Shown here: positions 5,827 to 22,618 of the stretch, piece after piece | How the letters are laid out: every line of letters starts with the position of its first letter | Numbering within the stretch: position 1 is the first letter of the stretch | Origin: Pleurocapsa sp. FMAR1 | GTDB taxonomy: Bacteria; Cyanobacteriota; Cyanobacteriia; Cyanobacteriales; Xenococcaceae | Direction of reading: 5' to 3' | DNA: 64,000 bases | Assembly (NCBI RefSeq): GCF_963665995.1 | Contig: NZ_OY762512.1 | Span: 2,418,001 to 2,482,000 of the forward strand | Made by a program: the position numbers and the translations under genes | The notes under the pieces: generated by a model | What the model saw: only the letters and a program-made list of their open reading frames with translations | The model's database searches: none | What the model was told of the DNA's origin: nothing

Positions 5827-6391
5827 TAATTGTTAAGCAATAATTAGCTTCTTTATAATTTATAGGTTCGTCTATCACGGATACCGCTTCGCGACACGGA
5901 GGGCGAAAAAGCATTGCGGGGGTTTCCCCCGTTGAGCTTATTGAGTAAGAAGTTAGTCCTTTAGGACATATAGGTATTCACTTTTCTATCAGGGATGCCT
6001 CTATGCGTATATAGCTTTCAGCTTAATATCTCTTGAAGTATAACTATGTTCAAATCCCTTAATAAACACTAATATCTATATCGTTTATGTCATTCGATTT
6101 TTGTAGATTTACTTTGTGAAGTAAATCTGTTTACAATTTTGCCAAATGCTATTTTTTACTCTAGGGCAATTACTATCCTATTGATGTGTGTCAATATACA
6201 GTGTAAATAATGTTGCACTTGAAGAATAAGCGATCGCACTTCATTTTCTCTCTATTCATCCTTTAGCTACCATTTTTTCAGCTAATAACTTTGATAAGAC
6301 AACCAAATATATTTTCGGCATTGCACAGTTTCGGAATGATTCTGAATAAAGAAGATTAATGATTCCCCTCGTCTTTTAGTCTCCCAGTCCC
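5827..6391. other. Intergenic region with GC-rich repeat remnant and a hairpin
   Basis: No intact gene seen. At about 5872-5945 a GC-rich stretch includes GCATTGCGGGGGTTTCCCCC, resembling part of the larger repeat island at 23090-23413. At 6105-6128 there is a perfect 10-bp hairpin with a TGTG loop. The remainder is AT-rich with one HIP1 site. Confidence 0.4.
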
Positions 6392-6523
6392 CTAGTTAAA
6401 CCTAACCATCTCACAATGATGCAACGCCATATTTTCAATCTGTTGACCAAGTAAAAAGCAAAAGTCTTGTTTGTCTCCAGTTAATAAATGAGTACATCTT
6501 CAAGCGATACCAACGGCAATACT
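6392..6523 (-). pseudogene. Remnant of a PIN-domain toxin (C-terminal end only)
   Basis: Reading the minus strand just after the DUF433 gene, one frame gives CTHLLTGDKQDF followed by about 20 residues ending in a TAG. LLTGDxxDF is the typical C-terminal motif of PIN-domain ribonuclease toxins (the Asp residues are active-site acids). An in-frame TGA lies two codons before the Cys, and nothing of the N-terminal two-thirds is present. The position directly behind an antitoxin-type gene is where a toxin partner would be expected. Too short to be certain. Confidence 0.45.
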
Positions 6524-6525
6524 TT

Positions 6526-6870
6526 CTAGTAAAGATTCTCATCCTTGATTTGTTGAGATAATAAACGAGAACGAATTAAACTCATATCAGATTGAGTCAA
6601 ATTGATACGCTGCTTTACAGATTCGGCTAACTCTTCTCTCTGATTTAAATATTCTTCTACTGAATCTTTATTTTTAAGATAGTAAGCGATCGCTCCATAA
6701 GTATCAGATAAAGTCAAAGTTGAGTAGCTATCGACAATAGATTCGGCAGAGGCATCATCTTGAAAAGCTCGAATCACTATTTCTAACAAAACTCTCGAAT
6801 TACCTACTCTAATTGCGCCAGTATTATCTTCTTCACGTGGTGGCTTATCACTTTTTAAAATAAGGTTCAT
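6526..6870 (-). CDS. DUF433 domain protein (antitoxin-type)
   Basis: A 114-residue protein with a segment typical of DUF433: GNSRVLLEIVIRAFQDDASAESIVDSY, then TLSDTYGAIAYYLKN. DUF433 proteins have an HTH-like fold and are commonly paired with PIN-like DUF5615 toxins. Here the DUF5615 gene lies upstream on the same strand with a gap of about 160 bases, rather than immediately downstream in the usual overlapping arrangement; directly downstream is only a PIN remnant. The C-terminal 35 residues (VEEYLNQREELAESVKQRI onwards) are a charged helix. Confidence 0.8.
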   Translation of the reverse strand: MNLILKSDKPPREEDNTGAIRVGNSRVLLEIVIRAFQDDASAESIVDSYSTLTLSDTYGAIAYYLKNKDSVEEYLNQREELAESVKQRINLTQSDMSLIRSRLLSQQIKDENLY

Positions 6871-7029
6871 AAACTATCTGCATCATTCACGCTTTCAGCA
6901 TAATTATAAATTTTAACTTAATGTTTTGAAACAGGTGAGATTGCTATTAGACAAATTACAATCGTAATCTTAATTTATTTTTTTGGCAAAAAGTAAGAAC
7001 AATCAGGGTATATATAAAACCTTTCTGTT

Positions 7030-7350
7030 TCATTCTTCTGGCTCACTATATACCGTGTAGAGTAGTAACTCATCAATGGCTTGTTTTATAGAAAGACGAT
7101 CATTAACTACAAACAATCCTCTCATCACCTCTTCTTTTGCCACACGTTCATAAGCAAAGTCGGGCATGGTTGCGCGATCATAAGTGATAACAATGCGTTT
7201 GTTGTCAGCAGCCCAGGATAAAATTGTTGAATCATCGAGTTCTTGCAAACCTACATCTTGAAACCGAAGTAAGTCGAGATCGGGTTGGCGCAAAAATAGT
7301 CCTCGAATTATGTTGCCGTCGAAATTTTCATCGCTTAACAAGCTCAACAT
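7030..7350 (-). CDS. DUF5615 PIN-like protein (toxin-type)
   Basis: The core starts LSLLSDENFDGNIIRGL and continues LRFQDVGLQELDDSTIL and RIVITYDRATMPDFA, matching the DUF5615/PIN-like nuclease family with its conserved N-terminal DEN(F) and central D residues. The frame is open for another 31 codons upstream to an ATG at 7443, but those residues are not family-like, so I chose the Met at 7350, directly before the first strand of the fold. It is divergent from the pPIWI-RE operon whose first ATG is at 7475. Presumed ribonuclease toxin controlled by a DUF433 partner; order of the pair is inverted relative to the common arrangement. Confidence 0.75.
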   Translation of the reverse strand: MLSLLSDENFDGNIIRGLFLRQPDLDLLRFQDVGLQELDDSTILSWAADNKRIVITYDRATMPDFAYERVAKEEVMRGLFVVNDRLSIKQAIDELLLYTVYSEPEE

Positions 7351-7474
7351 ATCTAACAAAAATATTTTCCGTAGTCCAGATGTTTTTACAACAGCTTTTG
7401 ACTTACACAACCCGATTATAGTTGCCGAGAATAAATTTGTCACCTTATAATGTTTACATCAATTGGTGTAAAAA

Positions 7475-9028
7475 ATGGATTTCGACGATATTAGAGATTG
7501 GCAAGGTACGGCGGAAAATCTTTTGGAAAAATTATAGCATAAAATCAAACAGCTAAATTTATCAGTTGAACCCCCTGCTGTCAGGACAATTCGTTCATGG
7601 AGAGGTAAAAAGCTTTTATCTCAACCGAAAGGGAAAAAATTTGGCTTTCGTCAAGTATTAGAAGGATTAGTAACTTTGCAGTTGTTGAAAAAAGGTTGGA
7701 CTTTAGTTGCGATCGCCGAAGTATTGTCTTCTCTCAACGACAAAGAATTGGAACAACAAATTTTAGCGATAAAAGACGGCGAAAAATCTGAGAACGATCA
7801 ACAATTATCTTTGTTTCCCCTTCAGCAAAACAAAAACAATCTTACTTTAGCTGAAGATGCTGTAATTCTTTTAGCTCAAGGGATTTTGGGACAATACGAT
7901 CGCGTTCTTATGGGTAGAAAAATTGTTAGACAGGATGACAAATTACCTTCAGAATTATATTCAGCAATGTGTAAAATTGGTCGTTTGTATCTAGAAGAAG
8001 GAAAATGCGATCGCGCTGCTTGTGTTCATGATGTATTGGAGCGTTCTCGATTTAGTTTGAATACTTATAAAAAATGGGATTTGAATATCTTTCGCGATTC
8101 AGAATTTCGCTTTGGTAATGTCCAATTGATTTATTCAGACTTACGAGTACCAACAGTAGATTGTGCTGATATTGCTAATCTTTCAGGAGGCTTTGGTGAG
8201 GATCAAGTTATCGAATATAAACTGTACCAATCAATTAAAATTGCAACTGAAAGTTTGGGAAGAAAGAAGCAACACAAAGCATACACTGCAATCAGAGAAT
8301 TATTAGGGAGGCGATGGCTGATTAGAGAAAGAGAGCTTTTGGATTATTTAGAAGAAAAAGATTTGACACCGCGACAAGAAACAGTCCTTGAATTTTTTAA
8401 TTCCGTTCCCGAAATTTGGTTGATCAATAATTGTGCGAATCGTTGCTATCACTGCGGGACTTTAATGCGACCTCATCACAATCGAGATCGCTATCCTCAA
8501 GGCTATTGTCCGATTCATCAATGTAACAGTAAATATCCGCCACAGGTGGGAGAGAAATTAAATCCAGAAGACGGTCGATTGTTAGTGGCAAAACCACAAA
8601 TACTAGCTTATTGGACTGCGCCTGCGATCGATGAATTAGCGATTTTTGATGAGGCAACAAATAATGATTTGGATGCAGAATTATATCCCGAATCAGATCT
8701 ATGTGATGTGGCAATTGGCGATCGCAACCTCGACAGTTCCTTCAAGTCGGGAGACCCGCCCAACGGACTGTCTCGCAATATTGGTATAGATGCCAAATCT
8801 TATCGCAGTCCCGTACTACTAGCACTAAAGCTCAATCGCAGTATCGGTGGACTAATTCATTACAAAAAGCGAATCGTCGCCATTACCGACGAATTAATTG
8901 AAGACTGTCCTGGCTATTTTTCTACTTTGCGTTCTTTGCTGGATGAAAAAAAGGAGACTAAAGGCTTGCAGATCATGTCCGTATCTTCAGTTATTGAAAA
9001 CATAGAGGAGGGTTACTATGCGAGTTAA
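7475..9028 (+). pseudogene. First gene of pPIWI-RE island, interrupted by an in-frame TAG
   Basis: The frame runs from an ATG at 7475 to a TAA at 9028 and would give 517 codons, but codon 21 (7535-7537) is TAG. No ATG, GTG or TTG follows in frame until 7676 (codon 68), which would remove a clear MerR-like winged-HTH segment (VRTIRSWRGKKLLSQP, then FGFRQVLEGLVTLQLLKKGW) that lies between the TAG and 7676. Further on, codons about 320-350 hold a Cys/His cluster (NCANRCYHCG then YCPIHQC), a likely zinc site. The C-terminal part ends in a compact alpha/beta region (KRIVAITDEL, LQIMSVSSVIENI) that could be the nuclease-like domain of the third member of pPIWI-RE triads, but I see no clear PD-ExK motif. 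The upstream 20 codons look native, so one C-to-T change of a CAG would explain the stop. Alternatives are a non-standard start (ATT/ATC) or amber readthrough. Confidence 0.7.
9005..9012 (+). promoter_or_regulatory. Strong Shine-Dalgarno before the 9018 start
   Basis: GAGGAGG ends five bases before the ATG at 9018, inside the end of the preceding gene. It supports real initiation at 9018. No comparable site precedes the ATG at 9201, the apparent start of the helicase ORF. Confidence 0.7.
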
Positions 9029-9200
9029 ATATGATTTTTGGAAGGGATATGATCGCATTGGTTGGCTTTGCGTGCTGATGGAAGAATTTATCGGTGTAAA
9101 TTCTTTAAAAAATTCTTCTGTGATTATGTCTGGAATGGCAAGTGTTTATAATGCGCCGAATTTAGAACGCGCACGACAGGCAATTTTTAATTTGCGTTAG
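9018..9200 (+). CDS. 60-residue ORF in frame with the helicase, ended by TAG
   Basis: Starts at ATG 9018 (11-base overlap with the preceding gene) behind a strong Shine-Dalgarno, and ends in TAG at 9198-9200, immediately followed in the same frame by the ATG of the helicase at 9201. It contains a mixed helical sequence (YDFWKGYDRIGWLCVLMEEF, ERARQAIFNLR) with no motif of its own. Two readings are possible: a small separate protein translationally coupled to the helicase, or the true N-terminus of the helicase cut off by a nonsense mutation. The matching frame and the ribosome-site pattern favour the second. Confidence 0.6.
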   Translation: MRVKYDFWKGYDRIGWLCVLMEEFIGVNSLKNSSVIMSGMASVYNAPNLERARQAIFNLR

Positions 9201-12200
9201 ATGTCTCTAAGCTATGTCACCAAAAACTCTCTGGAATATGCGATAGCTCTTTATATCGACGATCATTACCGAAAAGGGACTCAAGGGGTTTATCAGATAG
9301 ATGGTGAAACACTAAAGTTTGAAAGAACTGATTTTTTAGAAGATTCTAATATTGCCAAGGCAAAAGAAATCCTTGCTGCACCGATGGAGTATAAGACTCA
9401 TAATCAAATTGTGGCTAATCCTCAAGAAGAAATGGCGGTTGATATTGGTGATTTACAGCGTAAAATTGCTTCAGGAGATTCTGCTACATCAACTCGTTTA
9501 CCAATAAACCCTATTACTATACCATTGGCTAGTCGCAAGACTCACGATCTCAATCGAAAACCAAGAGGTGATATTTCAATTCCGCTTCAGGAATTACATC
9601 AGACAGCAGAAGAAATGGATCGCCAGGATCGAGAGCATCCCGAACGAAGATCTGGCAATTGGACTAAACGTCTGAAACAGTTTGTAGTGAAAGTACCAGA
9701 AGCAGATCGCGGTTTACGAGTCGAAAACGAAACGATAAATTTATCGGGAATAAAACACTTGATTGGTTTACCTGGTGCTGGTAAGACCACAATTTTGATG
9801 GTGAGTGCTGTCTGGCTGGGAAAAAAGAGTTACAAAGTGATGCTGATTTTTCCTTCTATTGAAGTCGCTAGACGTTACATGGGTGACTTAGAATTTTATG
9901 GAGTGAAAGTTGGAATGCTGGTAGGTCAAAACCCTACCACTAGACGTAATCATGCAGACCGTATCGCTGAAACTATAGCTGCATCGGGAGAACAAGGCGG
10001 ATTTGCCTATACTCTTGACGGTGCTGACTCCTTTGCTTTTAATTGTTTGCTTCCTGCTTATTCTCCCACAGAAACCTCTCTCTGGGGTTTTGGCAATGCA
10101 CCCTGCAACAGTATTTTGCAAAATTTATCTTCATCCTCTGGAAAAATAAAGCGATGCCTGTGTCCTGTCTGGACAATGTGCGGACGCAATAAAGCACCAC
10201 GAGATTTGATTGATGCCGACGTTTGGGTCGGTCATATCAGATCGATGGACACCTCCGTACCCTATCACGCAATTGATGAGCAGATTCGTTACTTTGAATT
10301 GATGGCTCGAACCTTCGATCTAGTTATCTTTGATGAAGCAGATATGGTTCAGTCTAATTTAGATAGTTATGGACTGTCACAGTTAAACCTTTCTGGTACG
10401 GATGACTCCATTCATCGGACTATTCTCAAACAAGTTAACGAACCCTTATCCAGAGATAAAACCTATCTGTTAGCAGATCGCACCATAGAACTATATAGTC
10501 GCAACATGGCTGAGTTTGGCAACCACAACACCTTCCTTGTTAGCCTATTGCAGCATATTCCTAAAAGATTAAAAGATCGCTTTGAAAAGCAATTATTGAC
10601 CGTATCCCAAATAATCACCGAAATCGTAGATGAATTTAAACCCATATCTAAAAGGGACAAACTAAGTAAAGAAGAACAGCAGAAAAGATCGAAAAAAATA
10701 CGCGCTTTAACTGATGTTTGGACAAGTGCTGCTTATGCAGCATTTTACGATCGCACTGGCACTGATACAACAAAGAAAAGTTTTAATCAGAGCTTTTGTT
10801 CAAAAAATTTAGATATAGATACAGATAAACTTGAATCTAACTGGAATGAACTCATTAGTCACTTTCGCCGTTATTTAGCTGAAAATTTAGTCAAAAAACG
10901 AGATGAGATTATTGATCGCATTGCTAGTTCGTTTCTAAAAATCTGTTTTCCTGATGGCGATTTTCCTCATCTGACTCGCGAGTCTATTACTCTTTTGGTG
11001 GGTATTACCTTCGTTATTTTGGGTTATCAAAGAACCGTCCCCGAAACTAGAACAATGGTTGCGGAGGGATTGATTAAAGAACCGATTTTAAATCCGTCTG
11101 TCTCCGATAGCTTGCACCGTTTCACTCCTGAGAATTTAATTGGATTTCTTTCTGGAGTTAAATATCGTTTTTCAGATGCTCGAACTAATCGACATAACTC
11201 TAGTAACGTAACTCTTTCCCACGTTACTTTTATGGGTGCGCCTCGGATGTTGATGCACCGCTTCAATCGTTTGTTAGAAGCCGATAGTAGAAAAGATGCA
11301 CCTGCGGTGTTGATGACTTCTGCTACTTCTTATTTAGAAGCTAGTCCCGCTTATCACATTGATGTAGCTCCAGATTATTTACTCAAACCCAAACCAGATG
11401 AAGAGAAAGAAAGTCAAAAAGATAGAGATAAAAGTAAATACGTTTTTCTCCGTTTCCAAGATAAAGACATCAAACACGAATTTAGACCATTGCGCTATAG
11501 CGGTGCAGGGGAGGCGAGAAATGAGAACCTTCTCAAGATGGTCGATAAATTAGTGGAAAACGGCGACAATTCTGAAGTTTGGAAAGCGATTAGGAATTTT
11601 GATGTTAGAAAAGGTATTCATCGCAAAGCTGCTTTTGTAGTTAATGGCTACAAGCACGTCAGAGCAATTAAACAACATATAGATCGACATTATCCAGAAG
11701 TCAGTAAAAGAACTAAGGCGGTTGTGCGCTACCTTGAAGAAGGAGAAAAATCATCAGATTATGTGACTACTTCTCAATGTGAAGCCTTGGGAGATGATGA
11801 AAGCTGCAATTTAATAATCTTTCCCATGATGGCTATTGGTCGTGGCGTTAACATTGTTTTTACCAAAGGAGAGAGAGAAAGAGATGCTGCTGTTGGTTCG
11901 ATCTATTTCTTAACTCGTCCTCACCCTAAAATTGATGACACTCAGCTTTTATCTAGTTTAGCGGGACGAGCTACCCAAGAATTCGATCGCCGTGAGTTTT
12001 CTGCAAACGAAGGATTAACAGATATTTTTAATGCTTGGAAAACCGCAAGAAGGCAAACATACAAAAATGTTGGGCGGCTGCTGCGCGAACCATTAATGGC
12101 TAGTCGTTTGGGAATAGAACTGTTTGAACCGTTTACCGCTAATCAGATGGTGGCAATTCTACAAACAATTGGGCGTGGTATGCGAAATTCTTGTCCTGTC

Positions 12201-12479
12201 TCGGTCTACTTTGTCGATGCAGCTTGGGCTATTCAAACGGCTATGGGGAAAACAGATTCTCCTCGCGACAGTATGTTGGTACAAATGCGGGTCATCTTAG
12301 AAAAATGTGTCAAATACGATGACCCTGTAATTAAAGAGATATACAAAGAACTCTACCTGGCTTTTCTCGAACCATTAAGGGACATGAAAATTAATTATCC
12401 CCCAAATTTATTTCAATCAGAAGATTCAGAGTATGAAGACGACGACTTTGAGGATTTTGACGCTTTCAACGATATGTAG
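9201..12479 (+). CDS. XPD/DinG-like superfamily 2 helicase of the pPIWI-RE island
   Basis: 1092 residues from ATG 9201. Walker A is GLPGAGKTT near residue 190, Walker B FDEAD near 380. Between them, about residues 280-326, lie five cysteines (C in NCLLPA, APCNS, KRCLCP, TMCGR), positioned as in the Fe-S-cluster insertion of XPD/DinG helicases. The C-terminal RecA domain carries MAIGRGVNIVF near 877 and QTIGRGMRNS near 990, the arginine-finger motif VI. The tail is very acidic (EDDDFEDFD). In the pPIWI-RE three-gene islands described by Burroughs, Iyer and Aravind (2013) a DinG-type helicase is the constant partner; presumed role is unwinding foreign nucleic acid for the PIWI protein. The N-terminus may continue upstream across the TAG at 9198. 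Confidence 0.8.
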   Translation: MSLSYVTKNSLEYAIALYIDDHYRKGTQGVYQIDGETLKFERTDFLEDSNIAKAKEILAAPMEYKTHNQIVANPQEEMAVDIGDLQRKIASGDSATSTRLPINPITIPLASRKTHDLNRKPRGDISIPLQELHQTAEEMDRQDREHPERRSGNWTKRLKQFVVKVPEADRGLRVENETINLSGIKHLIGLPGAGKTTILMVSAVWLGKKSYKVMLIFPSIEVARRYMGDLEFYGVKVGMLVGQNPTTRRNHADRIAETIAASGEQGGFAYTLDGADSFAFNCLLPAYSPTETSLWGFGNAPCNSILQNLSSSSGKIKRCLCPVWTMCGRNKAPRDLIDADVWVGHIRSMDTSVPYHAIDEQIRYFELMARTFDLVIFDEADMVQSNLDSYGLSQLNLSGTDDSIHRTILKQVNEPLSRDKTYLLADRTIELYSRNMAEFGNHNTFLVSLLQHIPKRLKDRFEKQLLTVSQIITEIVDEFKPISKRDKLSKEEQQKRSKKIRALTDVWTSAAYAAFYDRTGTDTTKKSFNQSFCSKNLDIDTDKLESNWNELISHFRRYLAENLVKKRDEIIDRIASSFLKICFPDGDFPHLTRESITLLVGITFVILGYQRTVPETRTMVAEGLIKEPILNPSVSDSLHRFTPENLIGFLSGVKYRFSDARTNRHNSSNVTLSHVTFMGAPRMLMHRFNRLLEADSRKDAPAVLMTSATSYLEASPAYHIDVAPDYLLKPKPDEEKESQKDRDKSKYVFLRFQDKDIKHEFRPLRYSGAGEARNENLLKMVDKLVENGDNSEVWKAIRNFDVRKGIHRKAAFVVNGYKHVRAIKQHIDRHYPEVSKRTKAVVRYLEEGEKSSDYVTTSQCEALGDDESCNLIIFPMMAIGRGVNIVFTKGERERDAAVGSIYFLTRPHPKIDDTQLLSSLAGRATQEFDRREFSANEGLTDIFNAWKTARRQTYKNVGRLLREPLMASRLGIELFEPFTANQMVAILQTIGRGMRNSCPVSVYFVDAAWAIQTAMGKTDSPRDSMLVQMRVILEKCVKYDDPVIKEIYKELYLAFLEPLRDMKINYPPNLFQSEDSEYEDDDFEDFDAFNDM

Positions 12480-12529
12480 GCAAAGTTCTCTACCTTACTT
12501 ACCAACAAAATTATTTTCTAATTTGTACT

Positions 12530-15500
12530 ATGACTAAACAAAATTTGCAGGCTAACCAGATAAACGAAAATCAATCGAATCAAAAATTTTATGTGAAATT
12601 AGGAACTGAATCTAAAAATAAAGATAAAAAAAGGGTTACTTTAGCTTTCACTATTCCCGACGATCTACAGCCTGTCATAATTGAAGGATTTGCTCTTACC
12701 TGGACTAAAGAGGCTTTAGCTAACTTAGCTCAAATTCATAGTGATGTGAGTAAGATTAAAAATTTGCCTTATGCTTCCTTGAGAGGTTTTTTAGAATTTA
12801 GATTATCTAATGTATCTCGTATTGAGCCTAGTATGGGGTTAAGTGGTTATACTGTTAGCCAACAAAAACAACAGTCTTTTGCTTTTATTAATGGTGGTAG
12901 TAAAAATCAGATTACAAAAGATTTAAAACCAGTTCTCAATGATTGGTTAGAAAATCATCTCGTTCCCTACGGACAAAAAGAAGATGTCTCAGAAGATGCT
13001 ATTGAAAGATTGAGAGAGTTACAAGCTAAGAATAAATTGCTAGTAATTAAAACATTCAAATCTCAAATATTTCCTTGGGACTGGGATAAAAATAGCGGTA
13101 CAACTCAGCGCAAAGATATTTTTTCTTTTCCGCAATTTGCCGACCATGTAGCAAGAACAGTTTTAGAAAATAAAAAAACTGAAATGTTCTCAGATTTAGG
13201 ACAAGTAAAACGAACTATCACCAGCAATGGTGGAATGAGTTCGGGAAAAGTAGAATTGTTAACAAAGCCTATTTGTATAGAAAACAAAGGCTTATTTAGC
13301 CTGAAAATTGAATTTGAACTTGTTACTTTTCCTTCTTTGCATCAGCCACTACTAACAATGGATGTTAAGAAAAGACGTTGGCTTAATAGTCTTAAAGAAA
13401 ATGTTTATAGTACTGGTGGTATCAATGGTTATATATTCTCAAAAAACCATAGCGATCGCGTTTTTAACTTCAAACTAAATCGTCGTAAAAATAATGAAAC
13501 TAATAAATGGGAATGGCAAGCAGATAGTTCCTTTTCTGTTTTACAAAGAGAATTAAATCTACCGTTAAATGTCTCAAACGCCAGTCAAATAGTTAGAGGA
13601 GAAGCAGATACAGATGATTGTCAAGTTCTTTTGACCTACCGCAACGGTATTCAAGACGAAAAAAAACACGGTATTGATGCTGGTGTCCCTCCTAAAGATA
13701 AACTGGAAGCTTTTGGAAATATAGCTAAAATTTTAGAACCTCAAGGAATTAGACCCTTTGATGGTTATTCAAAAGTGGAAATCAGTCATCCTGAAGATAA
13801 AAATGCTGCTCGAAGCCTTATCAATACTCCTACTGCTTTTCATGAGATTATAGAGAATTTACAAGCAGAAAATGAAGATATTCCTGATGAAGATAAAAAA
13901 TCTCTTGATGAAATGAGCGATCGCGATATTATCGAATGTTTAAAAGATACTTTTGATTTTGAATTAAGTGAAAAAGGTATTAAAGACCTACGTTTCAAAG
14001 AAACCAGCAAAAATAGAAAGAATCAGATTGAAGATTTGGAAACATTATTTAAAGCTAACAAAGAAGCTATTAAGCGACTATATCCAAATGAAACATCATT
14101 GCTAATTATTTTCTATGAAAATGAGCGCAGAAGAACTGCTGATTTTTTACAAGTAGTCATCAATATGCTCTGGGGAGAAACAATAGAAATAAAGCTACAG
14201 CGACTTCCAGAAAATACTCATGGTGCAAAAGAAACCTTGCCAGGAAGCGAACTAAATAATCAACAAAGAGCAGAATTACGAGTAGCAACCTGGACACCTA
14301 TAGCTGAACAAATTGCTAAAATAAAACGCCCAAAATTTTGTTTGGTGATGGCAAGAGAATATTATCCTCGTTCAGAAGATGATAAAAATGCTCCCCATGA
14401 CGACACAGTTAATAAACCTTCAACTTGTAAAGCACTAGCTTCAATTGGTCGTATTTGTGTACAGTTTATTCGTCCACCCGAAATAGCAAAATCAGGAAAT
14501 ACTAAGATACAAGACTTTATCATTCGCGCACAGGCAGCTACTAAAGATTTGATTTGGGCGCATTCAGGTCGAATTGATGATGTACAAGGAAAAGTTACTC
14601 GTTACTTTAGTGATATTGAGCTTGAAAATAGACCTCAAGAAATTATTGCTATTACTATTGTTCGTAGAAATGCAGGTAGAACTAGAGGAAGATGGGAAAG
14701 TACTTTTATTGCCGTGGCAATTAAAATTAGCGTAGAAACTGGTTTGACTCAAATGTGCTGTTGTTACAAAGATTCTCAAACAAAACAACCTGTCATTACT
14801 GATTGGAAACCATTTATTGAAACACTTTTTGATATTTCTAAAATCTCTCCTATATCTCTTGGGGAAAATCGATATTCACAAAGTTTGGGTTTTCAAACAT
14901 TTGTCAATAAAATTATTTCTGATTCTGTCAATAAAGGTAACAAGCCTATAGTTATGATTGATTCGTCTAATTGCTCCCAACTCTGGGGATGGCTAAGAGA
15001 CACTGATATTAATTTATCTGATATAGTCCTCGATAAAAAGGGAGGTACAAATATGCAGGAAAATTGGCAGGGAGCAAGAATTGTTCGTATCAGGCAAGAG
15101 CTAGCACCTGGAATTGTTGAAGATAAAGTTAAACGTTTAGCAGAAAGTTTTTTAGAGGATACTCGAACTGAAAAAGAGTTGGAAGCAGCTAAAGATAAGC
15201 AAATCAAATTATCTGTTCCATCTGGTCAAATTACTGGTTTATATAAACTAGATGTAGAAAATAATACTGGCTGTGTTCCTTATCTCTCAATTGGTAAAAG
15301 AAGCACAAATCAACAAAAAAGAGGTGCTAGCTGCTACCAAGAATTTGAGCAAGAAAAAGATTATGAGACTGAAGTTCAAAAAGATAATGATCGGAAAAGC
15401 AAACAAAAAGTAACAAACAAAGCTAATTTTCAGTTACAAATTATAGAAACAAAGCTACCACATATTAAGCAATGGTCAACGCCAAATCCTTTAGAGATAG

Positions 15501-15685
15501 TTGTTGCCTTGCGTCAAGAACAAGACGAGGCAGATAATATAGCTGGCTTAATTGAAGAACTCCGTTATGGATACGGTCATTTCAAAGACTGGACAAAATT
15601 GCCAGCACCACTATTCTTTGAGAGAGTTGTAAGAGATTATATCAGCGAATTTACACTGGAAGAAGAGGAAGAAACAGAAGATTAA
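12530..15685 (+). CDS. pPIWI-RE family protein (prokaryotic PIWI/Argonaute relative)
   Basis: 1051 residues. I read three parts: an N-terminal module to about residue 430 (pPIWI_RE_X-like, LPYASLRGFLEFRL and IEFELVTFPSLHQPLLTMDVKKRRWL), a MID-like part about 510-650 (LLIIFYENERRRTADFL, CLVMAREYYPR, KALASIGRICVQFI), and an RNase-H-like PIWI part about 700-1040 (IIAITIVRRNAGRTRGRW, IVMIDSSNCSQLWGWLRD, ARIVRIRQELAPG, and the closing LRYGYGHFKDWTKLPAPLFF). The arrangement, length and island context fit pPIWI-RE, named for conserved Arg and Glu; R-x-R-x-E in VRIRQELAPG is a candidate for those residues. The family is predicted to act on nucleic acid (possibly RNA-DNA hybrids) in anti-mobile-element defence. 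The gene is intact, 50 bases behind the helicase, with no clear Shine-Dalgarno. No database search was possible, so the family call rests on recognition. Confidence 0.78.
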   Translation: MTKQNLQANQINENQSNQKFYVKLGTESKNKDKKRVTLAFTIPDDLQPVIIEGFALTWTKEALANLAQIHSDVSKIKNLPYASLRGFLEFRLSNVSRIEPSMGLSGYTVSQQKQQSFAFINGGSKNQITKDLKPVLNDWLENHLVPYGQKEDVSEDAIERLRELQAKNKLLVIKTFKSQIFPWDWDKNSGTTQRKDIFSFPQFADHVARTVLENKKTEMFSDLGQVKRTITSNGGMSSGKVELLTKPICIENKGLFSLKIEFELVTFPSLHQPLLTMDVKKRRWLNSLKENVYSTGGINGYIFSKNHSDRVFNFKLNRRKNNETNKWEWQADSSFSVLQRELNLPLNVSNASQIVRGEADTDDCQVLLTYRNGIQDEKKHGIDAGVPPKDKLEAFGNIAKILEPQGIRPFDGYSKVEISHPEDKNAARSLINTPTAFHEIIENLQAENEDIPDEDKKSLDEMSDRDIIECLKDTFDFELSEKGIKDLRFKETSKNRKNQIEDLETLFKANKEAIKRLYPNETSLLIIFYENERRRTADFLQVVINMLWGETIEIKLQRLPENTHGAKETLPGSELNNQQRAELRVATWTPIAEQIAKIKRPKFCLVMAREYYPRSEDDKNAPHDDTVNKPSTCKALASIGRICVQFIRPPEIAKSGNTKIQDFIIRAQAATKDLIWAHSGRIDDVQGKVTRYFSDIELENRPQEIIAITIVRRNAGRTRGRWESTFIAVAIKISVETGLTQMCCCYKDSQTKQPVITDWKPFIETLFDISKISPISLGENRYSQSLGFQTFVNKIISDSVNKGNKPIVMIDSSNCSQLWGWLRDTDINLSDIVLDKKGGTNMQENWQGARIVRIRQELAPGIVEDKVKRLAESFLEDTRTEKELEAAKDKQIKLSVPSGQITGLYKLDVENNTGCVPYLSIGKRSTNQQKRGASCYQEFEQEKDYETEVQKDNDRKSKQKVTNKANFQLQIIETKLPHIKQWSTPNPLEIVVALRQEQDEADNIAGLIEELRYGYGHFKDWTKLPAPLFFERVVRDYISEFTLEEEEETED

Positions 15686-15805: not shown

Positions 15806-18299
15806 TTAATTAGCTTGCACATCCCAAATATCTTCGCAGTATTCGCGAATAGAGCGATCGCTAGAAAATTTACCCATCCGCGCTACATTGAGAATAGACA
15901 TCTTCGTCCAATCTTCTTGATTTTTATATGCTTGGTCTACCCGATCTTGGCATTCGATATACGATTGATAGTCAGCCAACAACAGAAAAGAATCTTGATG
16001 CAGCAGTTTATCTATAAGAGGCTGAAACAGATCTTTATTTCCATTAGAGAAAACTCCCGCACTTAGAGAATCTATCGCTGCTTTTAATTCTTTATTATTT
16101 TCATAATATTGGTAGGGTTGATAACCTTGGGCTTTTACTTCTTCTACTTCGCCACTTTTTAAGCCAAACAAAAAGAAATTTTCTGACCCTACTTCAGTGC
16201 GTATTTCGACATTTGCCCCATCGAGAGTACCGATAATTAGCCCACCGTTGAGGGCGAATTTCATGTTACCCGTACCCGATGCTTCTTTCCCCGCTAGGGA
16301 AATTTGTTCGGATAAATCGGCAGCAGGATATACTCGCTGTGCAAGTTTAACGTTGTAGTCTGGGAGAAAAACTACCTTTAGGCGATCGCCAATATCTAAA
16401 TCGTTATTGACTACCTCGGCTACAGAGTTGATTAGTTTAATAATTAACTTCGCCATGTAGTAACCTGGTGCAGCCTTTCCCCCAAAGAAGAAAGTGCGCG
16501 TCACAATATCTAGATCCCGATTATGCTTGAGGCGATTGTACAGGGTAACAATATACAGCACATTAAGATGCTGACGTTTATATTCATGGATGCGCTTTAC
16601 CTGGATGTCAAATAAAGACTCAGGATTAACTGTAACGCCTAGGTTTTGGGCAGTATAGTCGGTTAAATCTTGTTTGACTGCTTGCTGTGTATCCCGCCAT
16701 TGCTGTCTAAACTGGGCATCCTCAGCCAAAGGTTCGAGTTGTTTGAGTTGGCTTAAATCTTTAATCCAGCGATCGCCAATTTTTTCTGTAATTAAACTAC
16801 TTAATCTAGGATTACTCAACACCATCCAGCGACGGGGAGTAATACCATTGGTTTTGCTATTAAACTTTTCGGGAAACAGTTCGTAGAAATCTTCAAGAAC
16901 ACTTTGTTTTAGCAGCTTGGTATGTAGTTCGGCTACCCCATTAATAGAATGAGAACCAACGCAGGCTAAATGCGCCATGCGGACGTATTTTTCACCGCTT
17001 TCATCGATTAAAGATAAACTGGCTAGTTTCTCGCTGTTGTTAGGATATTCCCGCTTGACGCGATCAAGAAATCGCCGATTAATTTCATAGATAATCTCTA
17101 AGTGTCTGGGAAGCAAAGAACCAAATAAACTTAAAGACCATTTCTCTAGTGCTTCGGGCAACAGAGTATGGTTAGTATAGCCCAGAGTATTTTGAGTAAT
17201 CTGCCAAGCTTTATCACAAGCTAAATCGTGTTCGTCGATTAATAAACGCATCAATTCGGCAACGGCGATCGCAGGATGAGTATCATTAAGCTGTGCCGCA
17301 AATTTTTTGTGAAAGTTATCTAGGCTCTCAGATTCGGCTAAATGGATGCGAATCATATCTTGTAATGAACAAGAAACAAAGAAATACTGCTGCTGGAGAC
17401 GCAATTTCTTTCCTTTATTCAGTTCATCGTTGGGATAAAGAACTTTGGTCAGGTTTTCTGATACTACTTTGCTGTCTACCGCGCCGTAATAATCTCCCTG
17501 ATTAAACTTGCCAAAGTCAAAAGATTTACAGGCTTCTGCTTTCCACAGCCTCATCGTATTAACGGTATTTACCTGATAACCTGAGATGGGCGTATCACAG
17601 GGAATGCCTTGCAGAACATAGCCAGGTATCCAGCGCACTTGATAATTACCTGCAATTATCAGTATATGCTTCTGTATGCCCTTCAAACTTCACCTCTACC
17701 GTAGCTTCAGGACGGATAATCTCCCAAGGATTGCCATTTTGCAACCATTTATCGCTAATTTCTACCTGCCAGCCGTCTTTAATTTCCTGCTTAAAAATAC
17801 CGTATTCATAGCGGATGCCATAACCAATGGCGGGGACTTCTAAACTAGCCAGAGAGTCCATATAGCAAGCAGCTAAACGACCCAAACCACCGTTACCCAA
17901 TCCTGGTTCTTCTTCCTGTGCGACTAATTCACTAAAATTTAGCTGCGACTCTTCTACTGCCTGCGCTACCTGATTGTAGATATTCAGATTAATTAGATTA
18001 TTACTTAAATGAGGTTCTACTAAATACTCAGCAGAAAAATAGCAAACCACCTTAGTTTCTGGATCTAAATAAGTTTGCGCCGTAGCTAACCAGCCTGGCA
18101 TTAGGCGATCGCCCACTGTATAAGCCAAAGCTAAATAATAATCATTTAGGCTTGCCGTTTTTACTGATTTACCCTGAAGATAATACAAATTATCGGCGAT
18201 CGCTTTTTTAAGCGTAGCCGTATCTAAACCAGTGCGATCATTCTCAATTACACTCTGTTGCTGAGATCTGTCCTGAGATAATGTCATTTCATTTATCAT
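15806..18299 (-). pseudogene. glgP: Glycogen/starch phosphorylase, frameshifted
   Basis: Two overlapping frames make one phosphorylase. The N-terminal frame (18299 down to 17646, 217 codons) ends KFEGHTEAYTDNCR; the C-terminal frame picks up at AGNYQVRWIPGY and runs to 15806 with QLNDTHPAIAV, SKTNGITPRRW, DIQVKRIHEYKRQ and the pyridoxal-phosphate site EASGTGNMKFALNG. Removing one base near 17652-17656 would restore about 835 residues, the normal family length. Function if intact: phosphorolysis of glycogen to glucose-1-phosphate. It lies 93 bases behind the phosphoketolase gene on the same strand. A single-base sequencing error or a recent mutation are equally possible; both halves are otherwise well conserved. 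Confidence 0.9.
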
Positions 18300-21270: not shown

Positions 21271-22005
21271 TTAACCAAAATGTCCGCTGGCATACTTCTG
21301 AGTTGATTCTTCTTGAGGATTATCAAAAATTTTTTCTGTTTTGTCGTATTCTACTAAGTAACCAAAGCGATTTCCTGATTCTCCTGCTTCAGCATTAAAA
21401 AATGCAGTCATATCTGCAACCCTGGTTGCCTGCTGCATATTATGAGTCACAATGATCATCGTATATTCTTGTTTTAAATCGTGAATCAAGTCTTCTACTT
21501 TACTAGTAAATACAGGATCGAGAGAAGAACAGGGTTCATCCATCAGTACTACATCGGGTTTTAGGGCAACTGCACGAGCAATACACATACGCTGCTGTTG
21601 ACCACCAGATAAAGATAAACCGCTTTGCTTGAGCTTATCTTTGACTTCATCCCAAATGGCTGCCTGTCTCAAAGACTTTTCCACCAAATCGTCCATATCT
21701 CCCTCATGACCGTTAATCCGCGCACCGTAAGCAATATTTTCATAGATTGATTTGGGAAACGGGTTGGGCTTTTGAAATACCATGCCAATCCGTCGTCTTA
21801 CTTCTACAGGATCGATATTGTCGGCATAGAGATTTTTATTGCGGTAAATAATTTTACCCTTTACTTTGCAACCATCGATTAAATCATTAAGACGATTAAA
21901 ACAGCGTATTAGAATACTTTTACCACAGCCTGAAGGTCCAATCAATGCCGTAACCTGATTTTTGGGAACTTCCATATAAACTCCTCGCAAGGCGGCAAAG
22001 TCATC
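21271..22005 (-). pseudogene. pstB: Phosphate ABC transporter ATP-binding protein, N-terminally truncated
   Basis: Residues match PstB from [14 protein letters not shown] onward: P-loop [12 protein letters not shown], signature [20 protein letters not shown], Walker [14 protein letters not shown], switch THNMQQA and the C-terminal QKYASGHFG. The usual first ~25 residues (with the YYG stacking motif) are missing, because the frame runs straight into pstC sequence at about 22004-22010. Only a TTG at 21990 could start it. The P-loop has Ile where PstB normally has Thr after GKS. Probably non-functional or producing a defective ATPase. Confidence 0.85.
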
Positions 22006-22618
22006 AACGGAGATTGTCTGGCAAGGAAGCTAGAGAATCGCGGGCGATCGCTGTAATTAAGGGCAAGATCATAATGGATAAAATTATTCCCGCAGGAAAC
22101 ATCCCAGGGCCAACATAGTTGGTTGAAAATAAGGGAATCCAGCCTAAATTATCATGTAACCAAGAGCCAATTGGCTTGAGAAAGGGGATCAATACATATA
22201 TTCCCCATAATCCATAGACTACGCTGGGAATCGCTGCTAGTAGCTCAACTAAAAATACTAAAATCAGACGCGCAGACTTAGGAATAAAGTTTTCACTCAA
22301 AACGATCGCATAGGCTACTCCAACAGGAAAAGCAATCAGTAAAGCAATAAGAGAACTAACTACCGTGCCGTAAATCATCGGCAAAATCGCATATTGTTTT
22401 TCGGGAGGATTCCAAGAACTGCCAGTTATAAATGGCCAACCAAATTCTTGGATTGCTGGCACAGCCTCAATACCCACCTGAATTGCGATCCAAACCAAAA
22501 CTCCTGCGATCGCAAATGCTAAGGCAGCCGTTAGCCAAATAAAACCGCGATCAATACTTTTTTCTGTAGAAAAACGTTTTTTATTGTCTGTTTTTGAATC
22601 AACAGTAGAAGAAGTCAT
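22004..22618 (-). pseudogene. pstC: Phosphate ABC transporter permease PstC, C-terminally truncated
   Basis: 204 codons from ATG 22618 give a normal PstC start: basic cytoplasmic tail, first membrane helix (FIWLTAALAFAIAGVLVW), NPPEKQYAILPMIYGTV, the permease motif FLVELLAAIPSVVYGLWGIY, and then [27 protein letters not shown] and a stop. PstC is normally about 310 residues, so the last ~110 are absent, and after the junction the sequence is PstB. The whole of pstA is missing in between. No pstS is present within the window upstream. Confidence 0.85.

Follow-up and report, generated by a model that had tools for sequence, protein, structure and literature searches.

The closest described relative of the locus discussed here is the pPIWI-RE system (Burroughs et al., 2013; PMC3702460). 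In the part of that paper available to us, the PIWI module is proposed to sense DNA-RNA hybrids and to recruit the DinG helicase, letting the REase cut. PsPIWI-RE of Pseudomonas stutzeri likewise has a DinG helicase gene and a nuclease gene as neighbours (PMC10991935, available text). According to the same text, PsPIWI-RE is both an RNA-guided DNA nuclease and a DNA-guided RNA nuclease and needs two catalytic Asp residues, while its deletion raised sensitivity to ciprofloxacin and gave long cells. Its findings concern nuclease activity and sensitivity to ciprofloxacin rather than defence against phages or plasmids, and no defence phenotype for pPIWI-RE is reported in the open-licence literature searched.

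A second point of comparison is the plasmid-elimination system DdmDE, whose guided Argonaute brings a helicase-nuclease to plasmids (PMC12904381, as far as the available part goes; the names DdmD and DdmE appear to be swapped there relative to the PDB titles).

We analysed a stretch of 64,000 nucleotides from Pleurocapsa sp. FMAR1 (the window). It is concluded, with a probability of roughly 60%, that a pPIWI-RE triad has been inserted into a carbon-metabolism cluster of a cyanobacterium of the Xenococcaceae type, that such triads carry out guide-directed restriction in relatives where they are intact, and that the copy in the window was recently disabled. The features are listed in Table 1. 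The system itself is known; what is new is the presence of two premature stops, a repeat insert, an empty site and a second, decayed locus.

Table 1. Features of the triad and its immediate surroundings (positions in the window)
Feature	Position	Strand	Evidence
Small ORF resembling DUF433	6526..6870	-	PF04255 23.4 bits, just under cut-off 23.6
DUF5615-domain ORF, small and divergent, next to the triad	7030..7443	-	PF18480 36.2 bits, cut-off 23.8
REase-fold gene, first of the triad	7475..9028	+	PF18154 41.5 bits, cut-off 26.1; PADLOC PprRE; alignment with relatives
In-frame TAG in REase gene, codon 21	7535..7537	+	Alignment; sense codon in 24/24 relatives
51-base insert (17 codons) in REase gene, window only, between catalytic D and DxK	8723..8773	+	Window-only columns against 24 relatives
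Helicase gene of the DinG type, Z domain at the N-terminus; stop at codon 61	9018..12479	+	PF18155; PADLOC PprDinG; motifs
In-frame TAG in helicase gene, with ATG 9201 directly after it in frame	9198..9200	+	Sense codon in 27/27 relatives
pPIWI-RE gene, 1051 aa, fully open; X 39-434, MID 543-684, RNase H 705-1039	12530..15685	+	Pfam; AlphaFold model; PDB comparison

Family membership and domain structure

Three consecutive genes on the forward strand (7475-15685) make up the pPIWI-RE triad described by Burroughs et al. (2013). A sequence-only reading of the window had recognised them as such, and the call is borne out by Pfam, PADLOC, the predicted Argonaute-like fold of the third protein, and the gene order, which is REase, DinG, PIWI with close or overlapping ends, as in the described triad. 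The matches to PF18154, PF18155, PF13111, PF18157 and PF13032 all lie above the curated cut-offs, and PADLOC names the genes PprRE (E = 1.2e-100), PprDinG (E = 4.1e-261) and PprPIWI, while no NCBIfam family scored above its cut-off for any of the three. The two checks that the sequence-only reading had proposed as possible refutations, on family hits and on the predicted fold, both turned out in its favour. Because the family is present in public libraries, the system is less "little-described" than had been supposed. The same reading was right that three co-directional genes lie here, but overlooked that two of them are interrupted by stops.

The window copy shares with the Burroughs system, to the extent of the available text of PMC3702460, the three proteins and their order, the X, MID, RNase H, Z, zinc ribbon and REase domains, and the conserved R and E. 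It differs in its two premature stops and its repeat insert; furthermore, the N-terminal HTH of its REase is unconfirmed, and domain Y (PF18156) is undetected at E ≤ 0.01.

The homologous start of the REase gene is ATG 7475, the start chosen in the sequence-only reading, although the coordinates given there run straight through the TAG at codon 21. The zinc ribbon and the REase domain both lie in the open part (7538-9028), and the four zinc-ribbon Cys and the D...DxK are invariant in the alignment with 24/24 relatives. The description of this gene as an HTH/Cys-cluster protein therefore holds for the four Cys, while the N-terminal HTH is only suggested, by sub-threshold Pfam matches (MerR_1, E = 0.15; DUF1836, E = 0.03); the gene is a REase-fold member. 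Among 21 REase homologues scanned, no HTH family was matched at E ≤ 0.01, and 10 of the 21 have domain Y. The AlphaFold model of the REase (pLDDT 61.7, pTM 0.53) is weaker than that of the PIWI protein, with a confident C-terminal part. Structural proof of a REase fold was sought with Foldseek, which gave no match at E ≤ 0.001, and a profile search of solved structures had no relevant match.

Homology in the helicase gene begins in frame at ATG 9018, upstream of the ORF as listed (9201-12479, 1092 aa). The stop splits the Z domain, such that profile positions 63-167 are matched instead of 4-167; the open part alone scores 40.4 bits against PF18155 (cut-off 25), and with X in place of the stop the score is 95.5 bits. 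The helicase motifs picked out by eye are genuine: Walker A, DExD, QxxGRxxR and four Cys are unvarying across the 27/27 aligned relatives. From its sequence, the four-Cys region is predicted to be an Fe-S region. A profile search of solved structures matched solely the ATPase region of reverse gyrases.

The third gene fits the earlier description of a protein with a PIWI RNase H end and a MID middle, since Pfam places X, MID and RNase H there above cut-off (PF13111, 160.9 bits; PF18157, 63.4; PF13032, 165.3). An AlphaFold model from 26 sequences (mean pLDDT 71.0, pTM 0.51) had 27 matches among PDB chains at E ≤ 0.001, all of them belonging to Argonaute, PIWI or DdmE entries. With low TM-scores (by query 0.17-0.29, by target 0.23-0.40), these matches back the fold only. 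A profile search of solved structures found two unrelated weak matches and none of relevance. R850, R853, R855 and E989 are invariant in 27/27 relatives; E989 supplies the conserved E of the family, and the three Arg are candidates for its conserved R. No Asp occurs at five columns of the first RNase H strand in the alignment of the window protein with its 27 relatives, and by eye it is absent also in wider subfamilies. In this the window protein differs from classical Argonautes, with which it has the overall fold in common, and whose catalytic tetrad includes a first-strand Asp. PsPIWI-RE cuts and needs two Asp (PMC10991935, available text), and the PIWI domain in the window is therefore predicted not to cut.

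We infer guide binding, the type of target, the partnership of the three proteins and a role in defence. The PIWI protein would hold a short guide and, without itself cutting, recognise invading nucleic acid, probably as an RNA/DNA hybrid or R-loop; opening and tracking the DNA would fall to the DinG helicase, and cutting it to the REase partner. It seems most likely that the triad combines a non-cutting, guide-holding sensor with helicase and REase effectors. DdmDE, whose DdmE chains are among the fold matches of the PIWI model, is the nearest working analogy, the presumed likeness being that of a guided Argonaute-fold sensor joined to a helicase and a nuclease. However, in the available text of PMC12904381, DdmD is a single helicase-nuclease protein, whereas in the window helicase and REase are encoded separately, by genes of other families, and the PIWI protein has RE and X features.

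Interruptions and constraint in the window copy

Neither stop was found in the aligned relatives, which have a sense codon at the REase site in 24/24 and at the helicase site in 27/27, counts that are not independent, since the set includes relatives close to one another. Intact copies of the triad exist in relatives. The REase gene also carries a window-only insert with, as read by eye, a direct repeat of 5 bases at its flanks. The core of the insert is a dispersed repeat with a 27-base core (window 8748-8774), lying in frame inside the gene and present at five places in the genome including this one; the other four (G000:C1 192011, 754889, 1450423 and 5349922) have 2 mismatches, and a reversed control gave 0 matches in the genome. 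In the REase model, residues 397-412 at the insert have pLDDT below 50 and lie between the strands bearing the catalytic residues. The two TAGs, taken with the repeat insert, indicate that this copy has most likely been recently disabled.

The proteins otherwise still look constrained, so decay, if it took place, is recent. Changes found only in the window at otherwise invariant columns number 2/144 in the REase, 16/368 in the helicase and 6/155 in the PIWI protein. At outgroup-invariant columns, the window helicase has 51 changes against 38-47 in four near relatives, and neither the REase (12 against 11-13) nor the PIWI protein (32 against 24-34) stands out. So little loss of constraint, as judged from the sequences, fits recent inactivation or continued function, and not long decay.

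Continued function would mean that the helicase restarts at ATG 9201 and the REase at an internal start, giving catalytic cores without N-termini. The position of that ATG, directly after the TAG and in frame, suits this, as do the low loss of constraint, the presence of every catalytic residue in the open parts, and the REases of a second subtype described below, which have no N-terminal part (381-383 aa in L044 and L045, against about 500). On the other hand, the helicase stop falls within the Z domain, the REase stop is followed by no ATG or GTG until a TTG at 7676, and all aligned relatives of the window's subtype retain their N-terminal parts. We consider a still-working cassette unlikely.

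It is rather improbable that both stops are sequencing or assembly errors in an intact cassette. A single assembly lies behind both of them, the remainder of the three proteins is well conserved, and the neighbouring glgP also looks frame-shifted; against this, the assembly is a single contig of 5.43 Mb and 99.88% complete, and two separate base-level errors, both giving TAG, would be needed in one operon.

Recoding of amber codons was considered and rejected. No tRNA with a CUA anticodon was present among the 39 tRNA matches in the genome (150 of 407 first-look candidates were scored, so one may have been missed), which include one tRNA-Gln (TTG); of 38 stretches in the window that run for at least 180 codons from stop to stop, 10 end in TAG; and at both sites the relatives have sense codons. 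The same three observations count against the idea that the TAGs form a programmed read-through switch, keeping the cassette off until needed, as does the presence of TAA in other broken copies. Such a switch would account for the same stop codon in two genes of one operon, each near the N-terminus, and for the TAG that interrupts the L044 helicase of the other subtype, and yet is very hard to credit. Recent disablement is the reading we retain for the window copy.

Genomic position and distribution

The triad sits between glgP and gpm, in a cluster that we take, by recognition, to consist of xfp, glgP, a phosphoglycerate-mutase-like gene (gpm) and ackA; NCBIfam scored the gpm-like gene below every cut-off. 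The related genome G005 has glgP and gpm close together on each of two contigs, with gaps of about 160 and about 470 bases; in G004, what we presume to be a glgX-like ORF lies between the two genes. The triad is absent from all three of these places. In four other genomes of the genus (G012, G011, G006 and G002), glgP is not near gpm. From the triad-free places in G005 and G004, the triad and the two small ORFs beside it look like the occupants of an insertion site. The DUF5615 and DUF433-like ORFs are perhaps part of the same inserted block as the triad. DUF5615/DUF433-type pairs can be toxin-antitoxin modules; such a pair was not found near the triads of L033 and L036.

The glgP beside the cassette (15806-18299, reverse strand) is split into overlapping frames, 15806-17686 and 17646-18299. 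A related genome has glgP as one frame of 861 aa, and a further copy is found in the window's genome at C1:161769. A phosphate-transport operon (21271-22618, reverse strand) also looks damaged, with a seemingly shortened permease ORF that is presumably pstC-like, followed directly by what we take to be a pstB-like ORF with a short front.

PF13032 was matched in 35 of 150 related genomes, including the genome studied here. The matches total 42, one of them under the family cut-off and three with a stop inside the domain. All three genes are present, each as one unbroken stretch, at 22 of the 35 named loci; the remaining 13 are truncated at contig ends, incomplete, divergent or broken. Among 72,556 plasmid records, 15 carry homologues, with a coverage of at least 80% in 9 of these. 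Carriage by phages was rejected: none of 50,697 phage records has a homologue, and the 10 candidate stretches from a pattern-based scan of viral contigs include no relative. A fourth gene tied to the window's subtype was also sought, and none recurs across independent contexts; the clusters found reach at most 6 of 26 loci and look like shared chromosomal neighbourhoods.

The distribution bears on the suggestion that replication or upkeep of the chromosome, and not defence, is the task of the triad. The ciprofloxacin sensitivity and long cells that follow deletion of PsPIWI-RE, as given in the available text of PMC10991935, point in that direction. Accessory defence is a better fit to the patchy occurrence among relatives (35/150), the presence on plasmids, the insertion where a related genome has an empty site, and the frequent breakage, and we regard an upkeep role as distinctly improbable.

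A second subtype with XRE and ImmA-type genes

The same genome contains a second, divergent pPIWI-RE locus at C1:3621440 (L003:3081-9337, equivalent to G000:C1:3616080-3622336). It is of another subtype and is decayed: it lacks the REase and about the first 478 residues of the helicase, and a TAA at L003:7874-7876 interrupts its PIWI gene. This subtype occurs also in G008, G112, G081, G128, G123, G011, G100 and G486. Where complete, it has REase, helicase and PIWI in the same order as in the window, but differs in its divergent sequence, in a shorter REase (381-383 aa in L044 and L045, lacking the N-terminal part) and in a divergent pair of genes directly upstream, encoding an XRE-type HTH protein and an ImmA/IrrE-type peptidase. 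In a class-wide search of 388 genomes, a REase of this kind was found in 6, three of them of this subtype.

PF01381 and PF06114 are above cut-off in both loci tested for them, L044 and L003. The pair is present in 9/9 second-subtype genomes in which the upstream region is covered (L003, L044, L045, L153, L155, L156, L159, L160 and L161; L046 is another contig of the L160 genome and ends before this region). No such pair turned up at three divergent loci (L043, L154, L157), among 45 loci belonging to other subtypes, several of which have short upstream DNA or come from the same organism, or beside 5 distant REase loci taken with flanks of 1,500 bases. Insertion of the two genes into the second locus was considered and discarded, because related loci share the pair in the same upstream place; what distinguishes L003 is instead missing DNA.

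The L044 helicase (6369-9920; G008, same genus) has an in-frame TAG at 9186-9188, which indicates that breakage of these systems recurs.

The link of this subtype to XRE and ImmA genes may be new. The available text of PMC3702460 mentions a rare metallopeptidase domain fused to stand-alone pPIWI-RE, and the word ImmA is absent from that text; a literature search for XRE/ImmA-linked pPIWI-RE gave no other title on pPIWI-RE among the matches listed.

Taking the two loci together, we tentatively suggest, as a possibility that we would not favour, that cyanobacterial pPIWI-RE cassettes are kept under dedicated guards because their unguarded activity harms the host. The guard of the window's subtype would lie in the N-terminus of the REase; in the second subtype it would be an XRE repressor with an ImmA-type peptidase, making an inducible five-gene system, and both copies in this genome would have been disabled separately.

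The XRE/ImmA-linked subtype is the most interesting by-product of the analysis and suggests how the system could be silenced and switched on. More generally, guide-dependent restriction by pPIWI-RE is a prediction, and the one experimental study found in the open-licence literature searched is that of PMC10991935, taken from its available text. The intact and broken copies collected here provide named material for a direct test.
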